Positions 687 through 9,105 of a DNA stretch of 54,653 bases are shown one piece after another. Under the pieces are notes generated by a model, which worked only from the letters and a program-made list of their open reading frames with translations, had not been told where the DNA came from and did no database searches. The position numbers and the translations under genes are program-made. This DNA is from an uncultured bacterium. Lineage in GTDB: Bacteria; Desulfobacterota; GWC2-55-46. Location: the NCBI GenBank assembly GCA_905339405.1, contig CAJPGC010000057.1, forward strand, positions 1 through 54,653. The letters are read 5' to 3'. The stretch's first letter is position 1. Each line of letters opens with the position of its first letter.

Positions 687-735
687 CTGACAAAAGTCAT
701 ATATCACCTTCGATTAACTTATTATATTGTTGCGG
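687..735 (+). promoter_or_regulatory. CRP/FNR-type box plus -10 for the reductase cluster
   Basis: A perfect 12-bp palindrome TGACAAAAGTCA occupies 688-699 (centre 693.5). A -10-like TATATT lies at 723-728, which puts the predicted start near 735 and the box centre at -41.5, the class II activator position known for FNR. A related box with identical spacing stands before the SCO gene at 3593. The first gene starts at 803. Binding by a CRP/FNR-family protein is inference. Confidence 0.6.
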
Positions 736-802: not shown

Positions 803-961
803 ATGGTGAACAGGGAAGAAGGGCCTGTGCCGTCCTGGCAGGTGTTCTATGATAACATCTGGCTGCTGCTGATTCTCGGAATAGTCTTGCCTACACTTGT
901 CTACACGGTCTGGGGGCTCATAGAGGTAATGATGGTGCCCCCTCTTCCGGTAGCGCCTTAA
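803..961 (+). CDS. Small single-span membrane subunit of the haem-copper reductase (52 aa)
   Basis: A 52-residue protein, too short for most gene callers, preceded by AAGGAGG at 789-795. It starts MVNREEGPVPSWQVFYDNIW, followed by one hydrophobic span (about residues 19-43) and a short tail. Its stop codon TAA (959-961) sits inside the ribosome binding region of the next gene, so the two are coupled. Tiny single-helix subunits are known in ba3-type oxidases (subunit IIa) and related enzymes; position directly before subunit II supports this role. The family itself is not recognised, so the role rests on context. Confidence 0.7.
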   Translation: MVNREEGPVPSWQVFYDNIWLLLILGIVLPTLVYTVWGLIEVMMVPPLPVAP

Positions 962-974
962 GGAGGAGATGAGA

Positions 975-1511
975 ATGGCGATTTACGAACCCGAAAGAGT
1001 ATGGTGGAACCCCCTCAGCAAGGATGAGAGGATATGGGTCGCCCTCGCGCTTATATGGATGCTTGTCTCCTTCATCTTCATGCCCATCTACCACCTCGTC
1101 GGCGCGCAGAACCCTCCCGCCGAGACATATTCCGTCAGCGCAGAGGACTATGACAAGCTGGTCGAGGGCATGATAGCGAAGTACAAGGTCGGCGAGGAGA
1201 ACGGCTTCCCAGTGGTGCACCCCAGCGCCGATGAGCCCGTCTACATAAGGGCCTCGATGTGGCAGTGGTACCCCATTGTCGAGCTCGAGAAGGGCAAGAC
1301 CTACAAGCTCCACCTCTCGTCGATGGACATCCAGCACGGCTTCTCGCTGCTGCCCATCAACATGAACCTCATGGTATTGCCGGGCTACGATTACGTCGCT
1401 ACCATTACGCCGACGACGTCCGGCGAGTTCCACGTGGTCTGCAACGAATTCTGCGGCGTGGGCCATCACATGATGGTCGGCAAGATGTACGTAAAGGAAC
1501 CTGCCAAGTAG
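975..1511 (+). CDS. Haem-copper reductase subunit II with CuA centre
   Basis: A 178-aa membrane-anchored cupredoxin subunit that takes electrons from a periplasmic donor and passes them to subunit I. An N-terminal span (about residues 23-42) is followed by the cupredoxin fold. CuA ligands are visible: H121 in DIQHGF and the C156-x3-C160-x3-H164-x2-M167 motif, with E158 also present. There is no CxxCH, so no fused cytochrome c. I start at ATG 975 because the AGGAGG at 961-966 is 8 nt away; ATG 969 is only 2 nt from it. It lies between two tiny membrane proteins and before subunit I, as in compact B-type or CuA-type NOR operons. Confidence 0.9.
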   Translation: MAIYEPERVWWNPLSKDERIWVALALIWMLVSFIFMPIYHLVGAQNPPAETYSVSAEDYDKLVEGMIAKYKVGEENGFPVVHPSADEPVYIRASMWQWYPIVELEKGKTYKLHLSSMDIQHGFSLLPINMNLMVLPGYDYVATITPTTSGEFHVVCNEFCGVGHHMMVGKMYVKEPAK

Positions 1512-1536: not shown

Positions 1537-1671
1537 ATGCCTAAACAGGAGCACAGAGATACAGTAGAGGCCCCGGGGGTGTTCGTCCTGGCCCTCATCT
1601 TCCTGGCCGTTTTCATAATCATTTGGTTCGCGCACCTCAAGTGGCTGATGGACATCTGGGGCGTGCAGTAA
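1537..1671 (+). CDS. Second small membrane subunit of the haem-copper reductase (44 aa)
   Basis: A 44-residue protein with a GAAAGGAGAA ribosome binding site about 8 nt upstream. Residues 13-33 form a single membrane helix, followed by a short tail ending DIWGVQ. It is placed 25 nt after subunit II and 60 nt before subunit I. Like the 52-aa product at 803 it resembles the single-helix accessory subunits of haem-copper enzymes, but I do not recognise the family. Its conserved spacing and strong ribosome binding site argue that it is real. Confidence 0.65.
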   Translation: MPKQEHRDTVEAPGVFVLALIFLAVFIIIWFAHLKWLMDIWGVQ

Positions 1672-1731: not shown

Positions 1732-3243
1732 ATGGCGAGTATCTTCAGAACAGACCCTTCGACGGGCCTCAAGATAGATAGGGCGAGCGAGAACCTCATA
1801 AGGTGGAACCTCATCGCGGCCCTGGCTACCCTCGCGGTAGGCGGTCTTCTGGCCCTCGGCGTCGTGCTGACCAGGTGGCCGAGCGTGCACCTGCTGCCGC
1901 TCGACTATTATTACAGGTTCCTGACGCTCCACGGCATCGACGCCCTTCTGGCGTGGATAATCTTCTTCGAGATAGCCCTCGTGCACTTCACGTCGACGGT
2001 CATACTGGGCACGCGCTCTTACGTGCCCTGGCTAGGCTGGCTGGCCTTCGCCCTCATGCTCATCGGCGGCGGCCTCATAAACGTCATCGTCCTCATGGGC
2101 GGCGCGGACGTGATGTTCACCTCCTACGTGCCTTTGAAGGCTGACCCGCTCTATTACATCGGCGTCATCCTCTTCGCCGTGGGCGCGCTGCTGGGCTTCA
2201 TCATCTTCTTCATAAACATCGTCCTTTCCAAGAGGGACGGCGGCTACAAGCGCTCTCTGCCGCTCGGCTCCTTCGGCATGCTGGCGGCGTCCATCATCGG
2301 CGTTCTGACGCTCGCGCACGGCGCGGCCATATTCATCCCGACGCTCCTGTGGGCGCTGGACTTCATACCCTGGGTCGACCCGGCAGCCTACAGGCTCGTG
2401 TTCTGGGGCCTGGGGCACCCCAGCCAGCAGATAAACGTCTCGGCGATGGTCGCCGTGTGGTACATGACGGTCGCGTTCGTCCTCGGCGGCAAGCCGGTGA
2501 ACGAGAAGCTCTCAAGGACGGCTTTCGTCCTCTATATCCTGTTCATCAACGTCGCCTCCGAGCACCATCTCCTCGTCGACCCGGTCCTTTCGACCTGGCA
2601 CAAGATAGTGAACACCAGCTACATGATGCACCTCGCGGTCCTGGCCTCGATGATACACGCCTTCGCCATCCCGGCCTCCATCGAGGTCGCCTTGAGGAAG
2701 CAGGGCTACACGAGGGGCCTGTTTGAGTGGCTCAAGAAGGCCCCCTGGGGCAACCCGGCCTTCTCCGGCATGGCCATATCGATACTGCTCTTCGGCTTCC
2801 TCGGCGGCATCACCGGCGTAATCTTCGGCACAGAGCAGTTCAACATCATCCGCCACAACACCATAGCGATAACCGGCCACTTCCACGGCACCGTCGTTGC
2901 GGGCACCACCGTGGCTTTCATGGGCTTCACCTATCTCCTCATCCCCTACGTCTTCAGGAGGGAGATAATATGGAAGGGCTTCGCCTCAATCCAGCCGTAC
3001 CTGTACGGCACGGGCGTGGCGCTCCTTTCCATAGGCATGATGTCGGCTGGCTCCTTCGGCGTGCCGAGAAGGCACTATGACATAACGTTTTCCGGGGCGC
3101 CTTTCTCCTTCACCTTCGACCCCTCCATCGACATGTTTCTTTCGATGATGGGCGTAGGCGGCCTCCTGGCCGTCACCGGCGGAGTCCTTTACATACTCCT
3201 CGGCTTCGGCTCCATCATCTGGGGAAAGAAGATAGAGCATTAA
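1732..3243 (+). CDS. Haem-copper oxidase superfamily subunit I lacking the active-site Tyr (possible NO reductase)
   Basis: A 503-aa integral membrane subunit I with about 12-13 helices. Low-spin haem ligands are H67 and H385, the high-spin haem ligand is H383 (motif GHFHGT), and CuB ligands are H229, H278 and H279. In oxygen reductases a Tyr cross-linked to a CuB histidine is essential: at His+4 of helix VI in A and B types, or six residues before the His pair in cbb3. Here these positions are Q233 (motif GHPSQQ) and I272, so both tyrosines are missing. That pattern is typical of nitric oxide reductases of this superfamily (eNOR-like groups with a CuA subunit). An oxidase of unknown type cannot be excluded. 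A strong terminator follows. Confidence 0.88.
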   Translation: MASIFRTDPSTGLKIDRASENLIRWNLIAALATLAVGGLLALGVVLTRWPSVHLLPLDYYYRFLTLHGIDALLAWIIFFEIALVHFTSTVILGTRSYVPWLGWLAFALMLIGGGLINVIVLMGGADVMFTSYVPLKADPLYYIGVILFAVGALLGFIIFFINIVLSKRDGGYKRSLPLGSFGMLAASIIGVLTLAHGAAIFIPTLLWALDFIPWVDPAAYRLVFWGLGHPSQQINVSAMVAVWYMTVAFVLGGKPVNEKLSRTAFVLYILFINVASEHHLLVDPVLSTWHKIVNTSYMMHLAVLASMIHAFAIPASIEVALRKQGYTRGLFEWLKKAPWGNPAFSGMAISILLFGFLGGITGVIFGTEQFNIIRHNTIAITGHFHGTVVAGTTVAFMGFTYLLIPYVFRREIIWKGFASIQPYLYGTGVALLSIGMMSAGSFGVPRRHYDITFSGAPFSFTFDPSIDMFLSMMGVGGLLAVTGGVLYILLGFGSIIWGKKIEH

Positions 3244-3262: not shown

Positions 3263-3296
3263 GCGGGGCCGCTTTCAAGCGGCCCCGCTTTTTTTT
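3263..3296 (+). terminator. Rho-independent terminator after subunit I
   Basis: A 12-bp perfect stem GCGGGGCCGCTT / AAGCGGCCCCGC at 3263-3274 and 3277-3288 is followed by eight T residues. It separates the structural subunits from the SCO/cytochrome b unit. Confidence 0.9.
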
Positions 3297-3391
3297 GCCC
3301 GGTTATGGAACCGCCGAGCTGTTTCATGATATAATCTTCAGGAAAAACAACGGAGTATGCTGGATTGACAGGCCGCCGGAACGGGCCGGAT

Positions 3392-3556
3392 ATTCTCTCT
3401 TAGGGGCAAATACCCCTCAGCTTGCTGCGGTTTTTCTCCCTCTCTCTTGATGGGGGAGGGCAGGGGTGAAAAGAACTCACCATCCCCTTAATCCCCTCCC
3501 ATCGAGGGAGGGGAAGATTATTTAGATACCCGCTGTTGAGGCGGGAAGGTTCATTT
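3392..3556 (+). repeat. Dispersed repeat R1, copy 2
   Basis: Second copy of the repeat at 13-183, same orientation, about 90% identical by eye, with an 8-9 bp deletion in the middle relative to copy 1. It occupies most of the 410-bp gap between subunit I and the SCO gene, so the two transcription units have been separated by repeat insertion or the repeats arose together. Confidence 0.8.
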
Positions 3557-3591
3557 TCATAATTTCTAAACAATGCTGTTTTTCCACGCGG

Positions 3592-3640
3592 CTGACAAAA
3601 ATCATTTTTGAGGCGTCTGCCCGTTGGTATCCTGATAAGA
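3592..3640 (+). promoter_or_regulatory. CRP/FNR-type box plus -10 for the SCO/cytochrome b unit
   Basis: TGACAAAAATCA at 3593-3604 (centre 3598.5) matches the palindrome at 688-699 in 11 of 12 positions. TATCCT at 3628-3633 is again 29.5 nt downstream of the centre, giving a start near 3640 and a box at -41.5. The start codon at 3656 would have a leader of about 16 nt. Confidence 0.55.
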
Positions 3641-3655
3641 CCGCGAACGGAGCCT

Positions 3656-4471
3656 ATGAACAAAGCCTTTCTCTTTCTGTTTTTTCTTCTGACGCTGGCG
3701 GCCAGCGCCGGAGCCGCCCAGCTCGACCCTGTCATACTGAAGAACGCCGTGGACGCCTCGGCCAAGGCCGAAGGCACGAAGATAGGCGAGTATTCGCTCG
3801 TCGACCAGGACGGCGTCAGGTTCAACCTGGGCGAGTATTTCAAGGGCAACAAGCCGCTGGTCATCAGCTACATATATACGAGCTGCCCGGTCGTGTGCCC
3901 GACCATCACTGCCGAGTTCAAGAAGGCCGTCGACGGCGCGAAGGAGGCCTTCGGCGACAAGTTCAACGTCCTGACCATCGGGTTCGACCCTGCTAACGAC
4001 ACTCCGGAAAAGCTAAACGAGTACGGCAGGAAGTTTACCGGCAGCTTCGAGGGCTTCAGGTTCGCGAGCTCCGACCCTGAGACTATCGAAAGATTATTGA
4101 ATGCGGCCGGTTTTTTCAGGGTAAGGCAGGACGACGGCAGCTTCGACCACATCGACATGGTGACGACCTTGAGGCCGGACGGCACGATATACAGGCAGGT
4201 GTACTCCTTGCGCACGCAGCCGCAAAACCTCGCCCTGAGGATGGAAGAGCTCTTGACTGGCAAGGCTGGCGGGGCCGCTTCGTTGACGCTCGTGGACAAG
4301 CTCAAGTTCTTCTGCTACAGGTACGACCCCTATTCCGGCAAATACGTGCTCGACTACCCGGTCTTCGTAAGTATCTTCATCCAGGCGCTCATCATAGGCG
4401 GGATATTCTACGCCGTATGGGGGAAGAGGATGATGGCGAGGTTCAAAAGAAGGAAGGAAGGCAACAGATGA
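3656..4471 (+). CDS. SCO1/SenC-type copper chaperone with C-terminal membrane anchor
   Basis: A 271-aa thioredoxin-fold protein that delivers copper to the CuA centre of subunit II. The start at ATG 3656 gives a signal peptide MNKAFLFLFFLLTLAASAGA; a longer frame from 3608 adds only an unlikely leader. The copper motif CPVVCP is present, with the partner His in the FDHIDM segment. Unusually, a membrane helix (about residues 238-260) sits at the C terminus followed by a basic tail. The TGA stop overlaps the next start (ATGA). Its presence next to a CuA enzyme supports cofactor assembly; the FNR-type box upstream suggests regulation with that enzyme. Confidence 0.88.
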   Translation: MNKAFLFLFFLLTLAASAGAAQLDPVILKNAVDASAKAEGTKIGEYSLVDQDGVRFNLGEYFKGNKPLVISYIYTSCPVVCPTITAEFKKAVDGAKEAFGDKFNVLTIGFDPANDTPEKLNEYGRKFTGSFEGFRFASSDPETIERLLNAAGFFRVRQDDGSFDHIDMVTTLRPDGTIYRQVYSLRTQPQNLALRMEELLTGKAGGAASLTLVDKLKFFCYRYDPYSGKYVLDYPVFVSIFIQALIIGGIFYAVWGKRMMARFKRRKEGNR

Positions 4472-6066
4472 AAGAAACTGAAAACGGGGTCGTCTCCGGC
4501 TCCGGCGAGGTAGTAAGAGAGGACAGGGGCGCGTCCCCTTCCAGGGGGTTTGGCGCGGGCGGGCCGCTCCAGCGGCTCTGGCTGAAGATGGAATCCCTCG
4601 TGAACTCGCTCACCACCCCGGCTTTGAACCCCTTTTACTACCTAGGCGCCATCTGCGTCTTTTTCCTCTGGATAATACTCGTCTCGGGCATCTACCTTTT
4701 CCTCTTCTACAGCATAAGCGCAAAGGGCGCGTACCTCTCCATCCAGAACCTGACGGTCAACCAGTGGTACCTGGGAGGCGTAATGAGGAGCCTCCACAGG
4801 TACGCCTCGGACGGTCTCGTCATTTTCATGCTGCTGCACGCCCTCCGGTGCTTCACGCTCGACAGGTACAAGCACTGGAGATGGCTAGCGTGGGTTTCCG
4901 GCATAGTCATAGCCTGGGTCGTCCTCATAGGCGGCATCTTCGGGTACTGGATGGTCTGGGACGAGAAGGCCCGGCTCGTGGCAACCCTTTCGGCCCACCT
5001 CCTCGAGAACGTGCCGATATTCGGCCTTCCGATGTCGCTCAACTTCTCAAGGGTAGCGAACCTCACCGACCAGCTCTTCTACATAGTGCTGTTCATACAT
5101 TTCTCGACCATCTTCTTTCTTTTCATCGCGATACTCGTGCACATCGTGAGGATAACCAAGGCGGTCATAAACCCGCCAAAGGCGCTCGCCTGGGGCATAA
5201 TGGTTATGCTCCTCGCGCTTTCTTTCATAAAGCCGGCCATGAGCATTTCCTCGGCCGAGCTCAAGTGGCTCGCCGACCCCGTACAGTTCGACTGGTTCTT
5301 CATGTTCATCTTCCCGCTCTTGAAATACATGAGCGCGCACATGCTCTGGGCCTTCATCGCCGGGCTCACCGTGATGGCGGCCCTCATACCGTGGATGACT
5401 CGCTCGCAGAGAAAGCCGCCGGTTGAGATAACGCTTTCCAACTGCACCGGGTGCGAGCTGTGCGCCGAGGACTGCCCTTACCAGGCCATACAGATGAGGA
5501 AGAGGACGGACGGAATGCCTTACCCGCTGGAGGCGCTCATAATACCGAAGCGGTGCGCGAGCTGCGGCATATGCGTGGGCTCGTGCGACTACAAGGCGCT
5601 GAACCTGCCGGACATCACCGAGGACGCCGTGAAGGCTTCAGTCAGGAGGCACGCGAAGGCGTTGAACGAGGCCGCCCCTGCGGGCCCGAAGATAATCGTC
5701 TTCGCCTGTGCGAAAGGCGCGTGGCTGGACGGGGCTGACGGGAAGATTCCAGGGTTTGATTCTGCAAGAGTAGTGAACCTGCCGTGCATCGGCATGCTCC
5801 AGCCCTCGATGTTATCCATCCCCTTCGAGAGGTCTGCGGCGATAGACGGCGTCTTCGTCGCCAGCTGCAAGCAGGGCGACTGCCATTACAGGAGGGGAGA
5901 TGAGTGGTTCATGGGCAGGCTCGCGGGCCACAGGCCGCCTGTCGTAAGGAAGGCGGTCGACAGGGCCAGGCTCAAGGTCGTCCACCTCTCCGCCGCAGAG
6001 AAAAAGGAGTTCCTCGAAGAGCTCGCGGCCTTCGGCGCTTCCCTCGGTGAGAGGAGGCAGAGATGA
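4468..6066 (+). CDS. Fusion protein: cytochrome b - 2[4Fe-4S] ferredoxin - MvhD-like domain
   Basis: A 532-aa fusion. Residues 60-315 form a cytochrome b/b6 core with two bis-His haem pairs, H110/H124 and H211/H225. Residues 326-336 and 363-373 hold two 4Fe-4S motifs (CTGCELCAEDC and CASCGICVGSC). The C-terminal part (about 405-515) resembles the MvhD/hydrogenase delta subunit, with C414, C440 and the C467KQGDC472HY signature. The layout suggests electron transfer between a quinone pool and a cytoplasmic iron-sulfur partner, in line with heterodisulfide-reductase or hydrogenase links. Start ATG 4468 overlaps the SCO stop and has AGGAAGGAAGG upstream. Whether it feeds the CuA reductase is inferred from the operon only. 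Confidence 0.85.
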   Translation: MKETENGVVSGSGEVVREDRGASPSRGFGAGGPLQRLWLKMESLVNSLTTPALNPFYYLGAICVFFLWIILVSGIYLFLFYSISAKGAYLSIQNLTVNQWYLGGVMRSLHRYASDGLVIFMLLHALRCFTLDRYKHWRWLAWVSGIVIAWVVLIGGIFGYWMVWDEKARLVATLSAHLLENVPIFGLPMSLNFSRVANLTDQLFYIVLFIHFSTIFFLFIAILVHIVRITKAVINPPKALAWGIMVMLLALSFIKPAMSISSAELKWLADPVQFDWFFMFIFPLLKYMSAHMLWAFIAGLTVMAALIPWMTRSQRKPPVEITLSNCTGCELCAEDCPYQAIQMRKRTDGMPYPLEALIIPKRCASCGICVGSCDYKALNLPDITEDAVKASVRRHAKALNEAAPAGPKIIVFACAKGAWLDGADGKIPGFDSARVVNLPCIGMLQPSMLSIPFERSAAIDGVFVASCKQGDCHYRRGDEWFMGRLAGHRPPVVRKAVDRARLKVVHLSAAEKKEFLEELAAFGASLGERRQR

Positions 6067-6722
6067 TAATCATACTCGTAACCCTTCTGGCCTTCGTCAT
6101 ACCCGTCGGCATATACCTGTTGCGTGAATGGAAGAAGAACAGGGAAAAGGAAGCGAAGGAGGGGCTTCAGCCGAAGAAAAAAGAGCCCCTCTCTATTGCG
6201 GGGCTCGTGAAGGTGTGCGTCCTTCTGTCCGTCTTCGCAGTCCCGGTCTACTTCTTATCGGATACTCCATACTCCTATTACGATAAGGACGACGGTGTGG
6301 TGAAAATTGCGTTCAAGCACTCCGGCACGAGGGTGGCCGACTGCGAAGAGGCCGACCTCATAAAGAAGGAGGGCGACAGGTACAGGCAGCAGCTCAAGGA
6401 CACCAGGCGGGTGCGCATGAGCATAGAAAAGATTGCGAAGTGCCCGCGCGAAAGGCACCCCGTAATGCTCGAGTTCTACGTGGACGGGGAAAAAGTCCTG
6501 GACAGGGCATACTCGCCGACCGGCTTGAAAAAGGACATGGCCTCGTATATATATGACGAGTTCCCCGTCCCGCCGGGAGAGCATTCATTCCGCGCGCTCC
6601 TTTACGACTCCGGCGGGAAAGACACGCCTGCCTACGCGCTCGATACCAGGTCGGTAGTGAAGCCCAGGGAAGTGAAGGTCGTCTGGTTCAGCGACAAGTC
6701 TGATTCACTAGTGATGGAGTGA
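6063..6722 (+). CDS. Membrane-anchored protein of unknown function
   Basis: A 219-aa protein whose ATG overlaps the TGA of the fusion gene. Helix 1 spans about residues 2-18, a basic cytoplasmic stretch follows, and helix 2 spans about residues 44-66, placing a domain of about 150 residues outside. That domain contains two cysteines, in VADCEEAD and IAKCPRER, and a beta-rich second half. No known family is recognised. Translational coupling to the cytochrome b fusion indicates a role in the same complex or in its assembly. Confidence 0.75.
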   Translation: MIIILVTLLAFVIPVGIYLLREWKKNREKEAKEGLQPKKKEPLSIAGLVKVCVLLSVFAVPVYFLSDTPYSYYDKDDGVVKIAFKHSGTRVADCEEADLIKKEGDRYRQQLKDTRRVRMSIEKIAKCPRERHPVMLEFYVDGEKVLDRAYSPTGLKKDMASYIYDEFPVPPGEHSFRALLYDSGGKDTPAYALDTRSVVKPREVKVVWFSDKSDSLVME

Positions 6723-6740
6723 TTTTTTTCTGCCGAGCAG

Positions 6741-6774
6741 GCGGGAGGGTTTTTTCTGCCCTCCCGCTTTTTTT
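6741..6774 (+). terminator. Rho-independent terminator after the cytochrome b unit
   Basis: Stem GCGGGAGGG / CCCTCCCGC (6741-6749 and 6759-6767), then seven or more T residues. Confidence 0.88.
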
Positions 6775-6906: not shown

Positions 6907-9105
6907 ATGAGATTCGGGATCAGGGTCAAGCTCCTTATCTTCGCAGCCCTCGTCTGGGCTGTCATATTCGGCGTCTATAGCCTTTATATCTACCAGGAGA
7001 GGATAGCCCAGACCCAGAGGATGGCCCTCATGACCGCCGGGTTCCTCTCGAGGAAGACCGCGGCCGACAGGCAGTACTACAACTCCACCATAGTAAAGCG
7101 GGCGCTCGAGTCCGGCCTCACCGTCTCCAGCTCATACCAGCACAAAGACCGCTCTATCCCCGTACATACGACCTTCCTTAAAGAGGCGGGGCAGACCCTC
7201 GGGGTCGAGGGCAGCCTCCAGATGGAGCTCGTGAGCCTCACCCCCATAAACCCGGCCAACGCGCCTCGGGACGAATTTCAGCGAAGGGCCATCGAGCGGT
7301 TCGTGAAGGGGGCTGACACCAGCTCCCACAGCTTCGGGGACTATGCCGGCAAGGAATCTCTCAGGTACATGATCCCCGACATAGCGACCTCCCAGACCTG
7401 CGTCGACTGTCATAACGCGCAGGCGGCAAGCCCCAGGAAGGATTACCGGATAGGCGACGTCCTTGGCGGGCTCGAGATAGTCCTGCCGATAGAGAGCGAG
7501 ATGGCCGCCGCCATGGACGACATCTGGCGCTCCATAGCCTACGGCTTCATAGTCGTCCTGGCGATGGGCCTGGCGGGGCTCGCGTTTATAAGGAAGGTCG
7601 TCACCTCCCCGATATTAGGACTTGTCGAAACCACCAGGCAGCTCGCCTCCGGCGACCTTACCGCCAACGCGGGCCTCATATCCAACGACGAAGTCGGAGA
7701 TCTCGGGCAGCAGACCAACGCGGTTGCGAGAAACCTCCACAGGATGATAGAGGACATAAGGCGCACCTCCGACGAGGCCGCCAGCGTGTCGGCCAGGGTG
7801 AGGGAGATGAGCAGGACGGTGCTCGACGGCTCGAGCAGGCAGGGCAACTCGCTCGACTCCATCGGCTCCACGATGGAAGGCCTCAACGCCTCGATATCCG
7901 GAATTGCCAGCTACACCGAGATGCTGGCGCGCTCGCTTGAGCGCGGCTCCTCGTCCGTCCAGGAGCTCGGGACGAGCATAAAGGAGGTCGTCGGCAGCAT
8001 GGAGGCCCTTTCCATGAGCGTAGACGACACCGCCGCCTCGACCCGCGACATGACCTTCTCCATCAGGGAGATATCCGAGAACATCGAGAGCCTCTCCTCT
8101 GCCGCAACCCAGGTCTCCTCGTCAATCATGCAGATAAACGCGAGGATAAAAGAGGTCGAGTCGAACGCGGCCGAGGCCTCCAGGTTTGCCGAGGACGTCA
8201 TCAGGGACGCCCGCGCCGGCATGGAAACCGTCGAGTCCACGATAGGCGGAATAGTCAAGACCAAGGAGATAACCCGCGAGTCCACGATAATCATCAACAG
8301 CCTCTCGGAAAAGATTAAAGAAATAGGAAAAATACTCGATGTAATACAGGAGGTCGCTGAAGAGACCAACCTGCTGGCCTTGAACGCCGCCATCATAGCG
8401 GCCCAGTCGGGCGACCACGGCAAGAGTTTCTCGGTCGTCTCCAACGAGATAAAAGACCTCGCCGAGAGGACCTCGACTTCGGCGAAGGAAGTCTCCGAGA
8501 TAATCGACGCGGTAGAGATAGAATCGGACAGGGCCGTGAAGGCCATGGAGCGCGGCTTCACGAGCGTCGAGGAGGGAGTGAGGCTCTCGATGGAAGCCGG
8601 TGAGAGCCTCAAGAAGATACTCTCCAGCGCGCAGAGGTCTACCACAAGCGTGCGCGGGATAGCCGACGCCTCACAGGTGCAGGCGAGGGAAGCGAGGATG
8701 CTCGCAGAGAATACCGCCAAGGTCGCGGAGATGGCCAGGAGGATAGCTAACGCCACGCAGGAGCAGGCAAGGGGCTCCGAGCTCATCAACAAGGCCTCCG
8801 AGCGCATGGCCGAGATAGCCTACAGGGTGGGCGCCTCCACCAGGACGCAGGCCGACTCGAACAGGCAGATAACTTCGACCATAGATGACGTCAACAGGAT
8901 GGTCGCGTATGTAAACGACGTCATCAGGGAGCAGAGCAGGAACACCGCCAGGGTTTTGGAAGCCCTCGACGCGGTAAGAAAGGTCTCCGTCGAGAATATA
9001 GAGAAGGCCGTGCTGGCCGACCACGCGGTCGAAGAGCTCTCCAGGCTCGACCGGGACCTCACCGACGGGGTCAAGAAGTTCAAGCTCAGGAAAAACCAGT
9101 CATAA
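6907..9105 (+). CDS. Methyl-accepting chemotaxis protein with haem-binding Tll0287-like (DUF3365) sensor
   Basis: A 732-aa chemoreceptor. Helix 1 is at about residues 7-28, then a periplasmic Tll0287-like sensor that ends with C165-VDC-H169, a c-type haem motif. Helix 2 lies at about 207-227, followed by a HAMP domain (about 228-285) and a long coiled-coil signalling domain. The hairpin tip reads ETNLLALNAAIIAAQSGD, where the usual E and R of the EAARAGE motif are I and Q. Such a haem sensor could respond to redox state, oxygen or NO. No CheA or CheW gene lies in the window, so it acts on proteins encoded elsewhere. Confidence 0.9.
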   Translation: MRFGIRVKLLIFAALVWAVIFGVYSLYIYQERIAQTQRMALMTAGFLSRKTAADRQYYNSTIVKRALESGLTVSSSYQHKDRSIPVHTTFLKEAGQTLGVEGSLQMELVSLTPINPANAPRDEFQRRAIERFVKGADTSSHSFGDYAGKESLRYMIPDIATSQTCVDCHNAQAASPRKDYRIGDVLGGLEIVLPIESEMAAAMDDIWRSIAYGFIVVLAMGLAGLAFIRKVVTSPILGLVETTRQLASGDLTANAGLISNDEVGDLGQQTNAVARNLHRMIEDIRRTSDEAASVSARVREMSRTVLDGSSRQGNSLDSIGSTMEGLNASISGIASYTEMLARSLERGSSSVQELGTSIKEVVGSMEALSMSVDDTAASTRDMTFSIREISENIESLSSAATQVSSSIMQINARIKEVESNAAEASRFAEDVIRDARAGMETVESTIGGIVKTKEITRESTIIINSLSEKIKEIGKILDVIQEVAEETNLLALNAAIIAAQSGDHGKSFSVVSNEIKDLAERTSTSAKEVSEIIDAVEIESDRAVKAMERGFTSVEEGVRLSMEAGESLKKILSSAQRSTTSVRGIADASQVQAREARMLAENTAKVAEMARRIANATQEQARGSELINKASERMAEIAYRVGASTRTQADSNRQITSTIDDVNRMVAYVNDVIREQSRNTARVLEALDAVRKVSVENIEKAVLADHAVEELSRLDRDLTDGVKKFKLRKNQS

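Follow-up and report, generated by a model that had tools for sequence, protein, structure and literature searches.

A cytochrome b-ferredoxin-MvhD fusion encoded with SCO and a membrane protein beside a predicted eNOR-type nitric oxide reductase

Gene layout, shared control and the CuA enzyme

The window (the whole 54,653-nucleotide stretch of DNA that was analysed, from an uncultured bacterium of the Desulfobacterota) carries two neighbouring gene groups on one strand, as listed in Table 1. The upstream group encodes a CuA-containing HCO and two small proteins. The downstream group encodes an SCO1/SenC protein (SCO), a fusion of cytochrome b, ferredoxin and MvhD domains, and a membrane protein that we call MEM. 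The fusion ORF, 532 aa long, is open and correctly placed. Both the SCO/fusion and the fusion/MEM junctions are ATGA overlaps, and the three genes are predicted to be translationally coupled. The SCO-fusion-MEM cassette is flanked by two strong terminators, which set it apart from the CuA operon; on this evidence we predict that it is transcribed independently of the structural genes of the enzyme.

Table 1. Positions of the genes and signals at the locus, with the basis of each assignment
Feature	Position	Strand	Basis or remark
Palindromic regulator box TGACAAAAGTCAT	688..700	+	Upstream of CuA/eNOR operon; TGAY-N4-RTCA in 16/21 loci, ~0.55 expected
Small membrane protein, 52 aa, possible eNOR small subunit	803..961	+	Read from sequence
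HCO subunit II, complete CuA site (H, C, E, C, H, M)	969..1511	+	COX2 score just below Pfam cut-off
Small single-TM protein between subunits II and I	1537..1671	+	Read from sequence; homologues in 20 loci
HCO subunit I, Gln replacing cross-linked Tyr (GHPSQQ), eNOR-type	1732..3243	+	COX1 (Pfam)
Intrinsic terminator	3263..3290	+	Between eNOR and SCO operons; 11-pair stem and T-run
Palindromic regulator box TGACAAAAATCAT	3593..3605	+	Upstream of SCO operon; 16/22 loci, ~0.45 expected
SCO1/SenC copper-assembly protein	3656..4471	+	PF02630; CxxxC and His invariant in 21/21
Cytochrome b-2x[4Fe-4S]-FlpD/MvhD fusion	4468..6066	+	Pfam, invariant ligands, bc1 cytochrome b profile alignment
MEM, two hydrophobic helices and predicted extracytoplasmic beta-sandwich	6063..6722	+	No Pfam family; modelled
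Intrinsic terminator	6739..6769	+	After MEM; 12-pair stem and T-run
Chemotaxis receptor, Tll0287-like sensor, CVDCH haem-c motif	6907..9105	+	Pfam; downstream neighbour outside core cassette

The CuA and SCO operons are both preceded by the conserved TGAY-N4-RTCA palindrome, which supports their putative shared control. This palindrome resembles the boxes of CRP/FNR-type regulators. The 2.65-Mb genome has only four copies of the 13-base pattern TGAYAAANRTCAT, and the boxes of the window account for two. Another copy, at L137 (G000:C14 118400-118412), is found 132 bases ahead of the start codon side of ftsH, the gene of a membrane protease; the regulon may include ftsH as a third member, or the box may stand there by chance. 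We also noticed a direct repeat of about 180 bases at 12-197 and 3391-3570 of the window, the pieces of which are 79-98% identical and have palindromic GC-rich parts. Its copies flank the CuA operon and are located upstream of both regulated operons, and recombination between them could delete the genes of the CuA enzyme. The chemotaxis receptor gene follows MEM in several family members, G322, G054 and G242 being exceptions, and its product may use its haem to sense NO or redox state.

Small proteins similar in sequence to the 52-aa protein precede subunit II in the Defluviimonas, Thermus and G016 loci. The CuA ligands of subunit II are invariant in 22 sequences. In subunit I, the Gln is kept as GH(P/S/A)SQQ in 25 of 25 window-type sequences, a position at which oxygen reductases have Tyr, and Gln instead of the active-site Tyr is given as the eNOR signature in a published table (PMC8756737). 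The initial annotation had placed the fusion next to a CuA enzyme; the neighbour is indeed an HCO with a CuA site, and since Gln replaces the oxygen-reductase Tyr we now predict that, very probably, it reduces nitric oxide as an eNOR-type enzyme and is no oxidase. Its best PDB matches are ba3 oxidases. In our tree, subunit I formed a clade with the Gln-type proteins of a Defluviimonas plasmid, Thermus and Thermomicrobium, and the Tyr-type B-family enzymes lay outside this clade, the eNOR side being represented by Gln-type relatives of which none is biochemically characterised. On both of two Thermus plasmids a cytochrome c and an Rrf2-family regulator are encoded near the Gln-type HCO, and on one of them nirS as well. 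The genome under study has cytochrome d1-type genes, one with the length of a nitrite reductase.

As in the eNORs tabulated in PMC8756737, the active-site Tyr is replaced by Gln and the CuA subunit II gene stands immediately upstream. The difference lies in the cassette: the Thermus and Thermomicrobium neighbourhoods, about 8 kb each, have no SCO-fusion-MEM, and the parts of the eNOR literature available to us make no mention of such a cassette.

Two further observations concern COX1-family genes. G242 and G412, members of the same order, carry two tandem Gln-type subunit I genes (L075 60-3815; L086 104-3772), 71-76% identical to that of the window, with one closely related CuA subunit alongside. 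A second COX1-family protein of about 465-490 aa, with the motif GGGHxxQFAN, lacks the CuB His-His pair and has Phe at the Tyr/Gln position. Its loci are G000:C36 13579-14817, L082 7088-8485, L080 11533-13011, L065 7446-8849, L063 8784-10178 and L059 2550-3905; the residues were read in the L-loci, and the G000:C36 protein is known from its COX1 score alone. These proteins form a clade adjoining the eNOR-type enzymes, and their genes are often near ctaB, a short COX1-like ORF, a NifU-like gene or a DUF1858-like gene.

Domains and ligands of the fusion protein and MEM

In Pfam searches, the fusion matched Cytochrome_B at residues 46-230 (1.1e-16), Fer4_7 with two [4Fe-4S] motifs at residues 325-377 (5.5e-8) and FlpD/MvhD at residues 409-525 (4.5e-16). 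The four haem ligands H110, H124, H211 and H225 are invariant in 26 homologues. In the 25 homologues that reach that far, all eight ferredoxin cysteines (C326/329/332/336 and C363/366/369/373) and the four MvhD cysteines (C414, C440, C467 and C472) are invariant too. Chance cannot explain these domains and invariant ligands, and the three-domain fusion is real. The initial annotation had described a two-haem cytochrome b core, two 4Fe-4S motifs and a hydrogenase/heterodisulfide-reductase delta-type domain. The Fe-S motifs and the delta-type domain were correctly recognised, and the four histidines agree with a two-haem cytochrome b; the word core falls short, as the cytochrome part runs on through helices E and F.

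This extension was found by profile alignment with the bc1 cytochrome b of the same genome (98.6% probability). In the alignment, the invariant Asp275 and the nearly invariant Trp276 fall on the Glu-Trp of PEWY; across the homologues the position is aligned as (F/L/I)DWF, with Asp invariant and Pro and Tyr not retained. The Asp-Trp pair at this place suggests a quinone site. The fusion thus shares with bc1/b6f cytochrome b a homologous four-His, two-haem core, helices E/F and Asp-Trp at the PEWY position. It differs from bc1/b6f in that its cassette has no Rieske or cytochrome c1/f partner and in that Fe-S domains, placed in the cytoplasm, are fused at its C-terminus. Among NCBIfam models, the neighbours of the cytochrome part are the b-type cytochrome ExtP and cytochrome b6, and cytochrome b6 also gave the best matches among PDB relatives.

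The ferredoxin-MvhD part adjoins the C-terminus of HdrA2 (98.8 bits, NCBIfam) and has MvhD structures among its PDB relatives. Unlike HdrA2/MvhD systems, the fusion has a cytochrome b attached in place of a flavin domain, and no Hdr or hydrogenase genes belong to the cassette. No flavin domain, such as the bifurcating FAD domain of HdrA in flavin-based Hdr systems, was detected in the fusion or its cassette partners with Pfam and NCBIfam. A Pfam scan of six proteins found no Rieske protein, c-type haem or cupredoxin in the cassette by which CuA could be reached.

MEM has no curated family in Pfam or NCBIfam, and none in Pfam at E 10 either. Its model consists of two helices and a beta-sandwich (pLDDT 75.5). 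Structure matches (Foldseek/VIA-align) were common beta-sandwich rows too weak for naming any family, and the CcoG domain was not among the matches listed. The MEM homologues have no invariant Cys, His or Met, that is, no invariant metal or redox ligand; C94 and C127 are usually present, and both are missing together in four homologues. We therefore ruled out MEM as a substitute Rieske or cupredoxin carrier. In five distant homologues (L013/G173, L014, G016, G061 and G096), fusion and MEM are one chain of 677-703 aa, in which a single hydrophobic helix joins the MEM domain to the C-terminus of the cytochrome protein. These single chains run from the membrane module through the double [4Fe-4S] and a TM segment to the extracytoplasmic beta domain. 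A model of a 689-aa fused protein had a mean pLDDT of 60 and was too poor over the cytochrome b and ferredoxin parts.

Distribution of the fusion and the eNOR-type enzyme

The fusion occurs in 14 of the 395 genomes of the phylum sample, and a profile search placed MEM in exactly these 14. The initial annotation had named a fusion occurring mainly without HCO genes as an outcome that would refute its reading. We found the reverse: all 12 genomes with the Gln-type HCO (eNOR) have the fusion, and two fusion genomes, G173 (99% complete) and G096 (86% complete), are without it (Fisher p 4e-21, shared ancestry ignored). Among 40 relatives, 18 have fusion and HCO, 2 the HCO alone, 3 the fusion alone and 17 neither (p 2e-6, shared ancestry ignored). 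The five mismatches are all fragmented assemblies of 140 to 350 contigs; the contig of G398 ends within SCO. Fusion and eNOR are present or absent together within one family and even within one genus (G408 versus G402). Pairwise identities of the fusion and the HCO correlate with r = 0.95, a value obtained with no control gene. In G061 the two lie on different contigs.

In the fusion profile search, E drops from 1e-213 to 1e-41 at the next match among those listed; no other protein listed covers all three domains, and nearly all later matches listed have the ferredoxin-MvhD part only. A contig scan of genomes with one query sequence reached close relatives only, and outside the phylum the search covered plasmids. 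A Defluviimonas plasmid, from a different phylum, has the order CuA-HCO-ctaB-SCO-fusion-MEM-hemerythrin, with 35% identity in the fusion; its hemerythrin-family gene directly follows MEM (L093 12101-12505).

Where genomes were scanned for HCOs, the fusion is mostly missing from those that have other HCOs and no eNOR, which rules out a general role of the fusion in CuA assembly. Full-length genes of the cytochrome d1 nitrite reductase type are enriched with the fusion (9 of 15 fusion-positive genomes versus 1 of 13), and no scanned genome had a Cu-type nitrite reductase above the curated cut-off. The genome under study has a complete bc1 complex, whose Rieske protein, cytochrome b and c-type cytochrome are encoded together in a separate operon; therefore, no further quinol:cytochrome c enzyme is required, and the fusion as a stand-in for a missing bc1 was ruled out.

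Taken together, a functional link of the fusion to the CuA enzyme, SCO and MEM is supported. Since the fusion is kept almost only in eNOR-carrying bacteria, and there with SCO and MEM, it probably supplies electrons for building or running the eNOR-type enzyme. The initial annotation had seen a coupling to SCO and an unknown membrane protein and control like that of the CuA enzyme, both of which hold, and had proposed an electron-input or bifurcating module for this enzyme. The link and the shared control stand; speaking against the electron-input or bifurcating role are the lack of Rieske, flavin and c-haem in the cassette, the ligand-free MEM and the complete bc1. In the literature searched, which excluded most subscription journals, we met no account of the fusion or its bond to eNOR: the separate parts are already known, and the combination and the link are undescribed there.

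Candidate roles of the fusion protein

We tentatively favour the idea that the fusion is an accessory transmembrane reductase, which would carry cytoplasmic electrons outward and reduce copper, or the thiols of SCO and CuA, for eNOR. On this reading, our best guess is that it assists the enzyme, helping its copper centres to mature or to be maintained, and takes no part in catalysis as a subunit. We infer the direction of the electrons and the acceptor at each step as follows. A cytoplasmic donor would reduce the [2Fe-2S] centre of the MvhD domain, from which electrons would pass to the two [4Fe-4S] clusters and on to the two b haems, thereby crossing the membrane. On the periplasmic face, beside the MEM domain and SCO, they would hold copper as Cu(I) and/or reduce the cysteines of SCO and CuA. 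The CuA and CuB sites of eNOR would then be built or repaired. The fusion would act like CcoG, with haem b and MvhD modules in addition.

CcoG, which serves cbb3 assembly as a cupric reductase, carries two [4Fe-4S] clusters, ends in an Ig-like periplasmic domain and has HCO-linked genes (PMC7558416). The fusion is like CcoG/RdxA/FixG in having a double [4Fe-4S] on a membrane protein and an HCO-linked gene (PMC7558416). It differs in its two b haems, its MvhD domain and its association with an eNOR-type enzyme, and MEM, compared with the Ig-like domain, is only modelled as a beta-sandwich whose matches are too weak for a family name. The CcoG model TIGR02745 gave no match in G000 at E 0.001; CcoG itself was found with it in a few of the same genomes. 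For CrpH, a PepSY_TM haem protein, it has been proposed that it reduces copper in the periplasm on behalf of HCOs, this activity being unproven (PMC13038864). Both CrpH and the fusion are membrane haem proteins; they differ in fold family, and no ferredoxin or MvhD domain is reported for CrpH.

We favour the accessory reductase because the CcoG-like domain order, the coupling to SCO and the HCO-specific co-occurrence all agree with it, with CrpH as a precedent for haem-based copper reduction. MEM accompanies the fusion in 14 of 14 genomes and is one chain with it in distant relatives, and the metal and thiol ligands of the coupled SCO are invariant. On the Defluviimonas plasmid, structural genes followed by ctaB-SCO-fusion-MEM resemble an assembly block. 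The cassette is a separate transcription unit, yet its regulator box is common with the structural genes. The fusion also tracks eNOR (12/12 eNOR genomes among the 395, 18/20 among the relatives) and is mostly missing where other HCOs occur without eNOR. Several observations fit less well. Asp275 and Trp276 suggest a quinone site, for which a pure copper reductase would have no use, MEM lacks an invariant Cys, His or Met that would mark a copper site, and G173 has fusion and MEM and no eNOR. The Gln-type enzymes of Thermus and Thermomicrobium do without a fusion within about 8 kb, and CcoG itself is thought to be active on the cytoplasmic side.

It is possible, if rather doubtful, that the fusion instead oxidises quinol and/or a cytoplasmic donor and feeds CuA of the nitric oxide reductase directly, as a private donor complex. 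The near-perfect co-occurrence, the common regulator box, the correlated identities (r = 0.95, no control gene) and the conserved Qo-like Asp-Trp with two b haems would suit such a complex. The cassette, however, offers no Rieske, c-haem or cupredoxin reaching CuA and no invariant redox ligand in MEM, bc1 is present, and the cassette is transcribed separately and in G061 lies on a contig other than that of eNOR.

We consider it unlikely that the fusion links the quinone pool, through a Qo-like site, with an Fe-S partner in the cytoplasm, the electrons exchanged between the two keeping low-potential reductant and the pool in balance during nitrite/NO respiration. Such an exchange would account for the invariant Asp275 at the PEWY position, the helices through E/F, the kinship with HdrA2 and the enrichment of cytochrome d1 genes. 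It would leave the SCO coupling and the periplasmic domain of MEM unexplained; moreover, the cassette has no Hdr, hydrogenase or flavoprotein partner, and the MvhD domain is retained in an alphaproteobacterium.

A function in NO/nitrite stress apart from eNOR, such as detoxifying NO or repair, which any NO-producing cell would retain, seems improbable to us: G173, where fusion and MEM occur with a full-length cytochrome d1 protein and without eNOR, and the hemerythrin gene after MEM on the Defluviimonas plasmid point that way, but the fusion is tied far more tightly to eNOR than to cytochrome d1 proteins, and the coupling to SCO points to copper. Highly improbable is Qo-type quinol oxidation by a Rieske-less cytochrome b, with electrons split between the nitric oxide reductase and, via the ferredoxin-MvhD arm, a low-potential Fe-S carrier; if true, NO reduction would drive the formation of low-potential reductant.

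The eNOR-type enzymes are recently recognised nitric oxide reductases and as such give rise to N2O; annotations often call them cytochrome oxidases. The SCO-fusion-MEM cassette provides a genomic marker for one eNOR clade, which it probably serves, and a list of accessory factors for co-expression when eNOR is purified. It also gives a direct test of copper-centre reduction and assembly in nitric oxide reductases, and its haem b/Fe-S/MvhD architecture would join the known transmembrane reductases.
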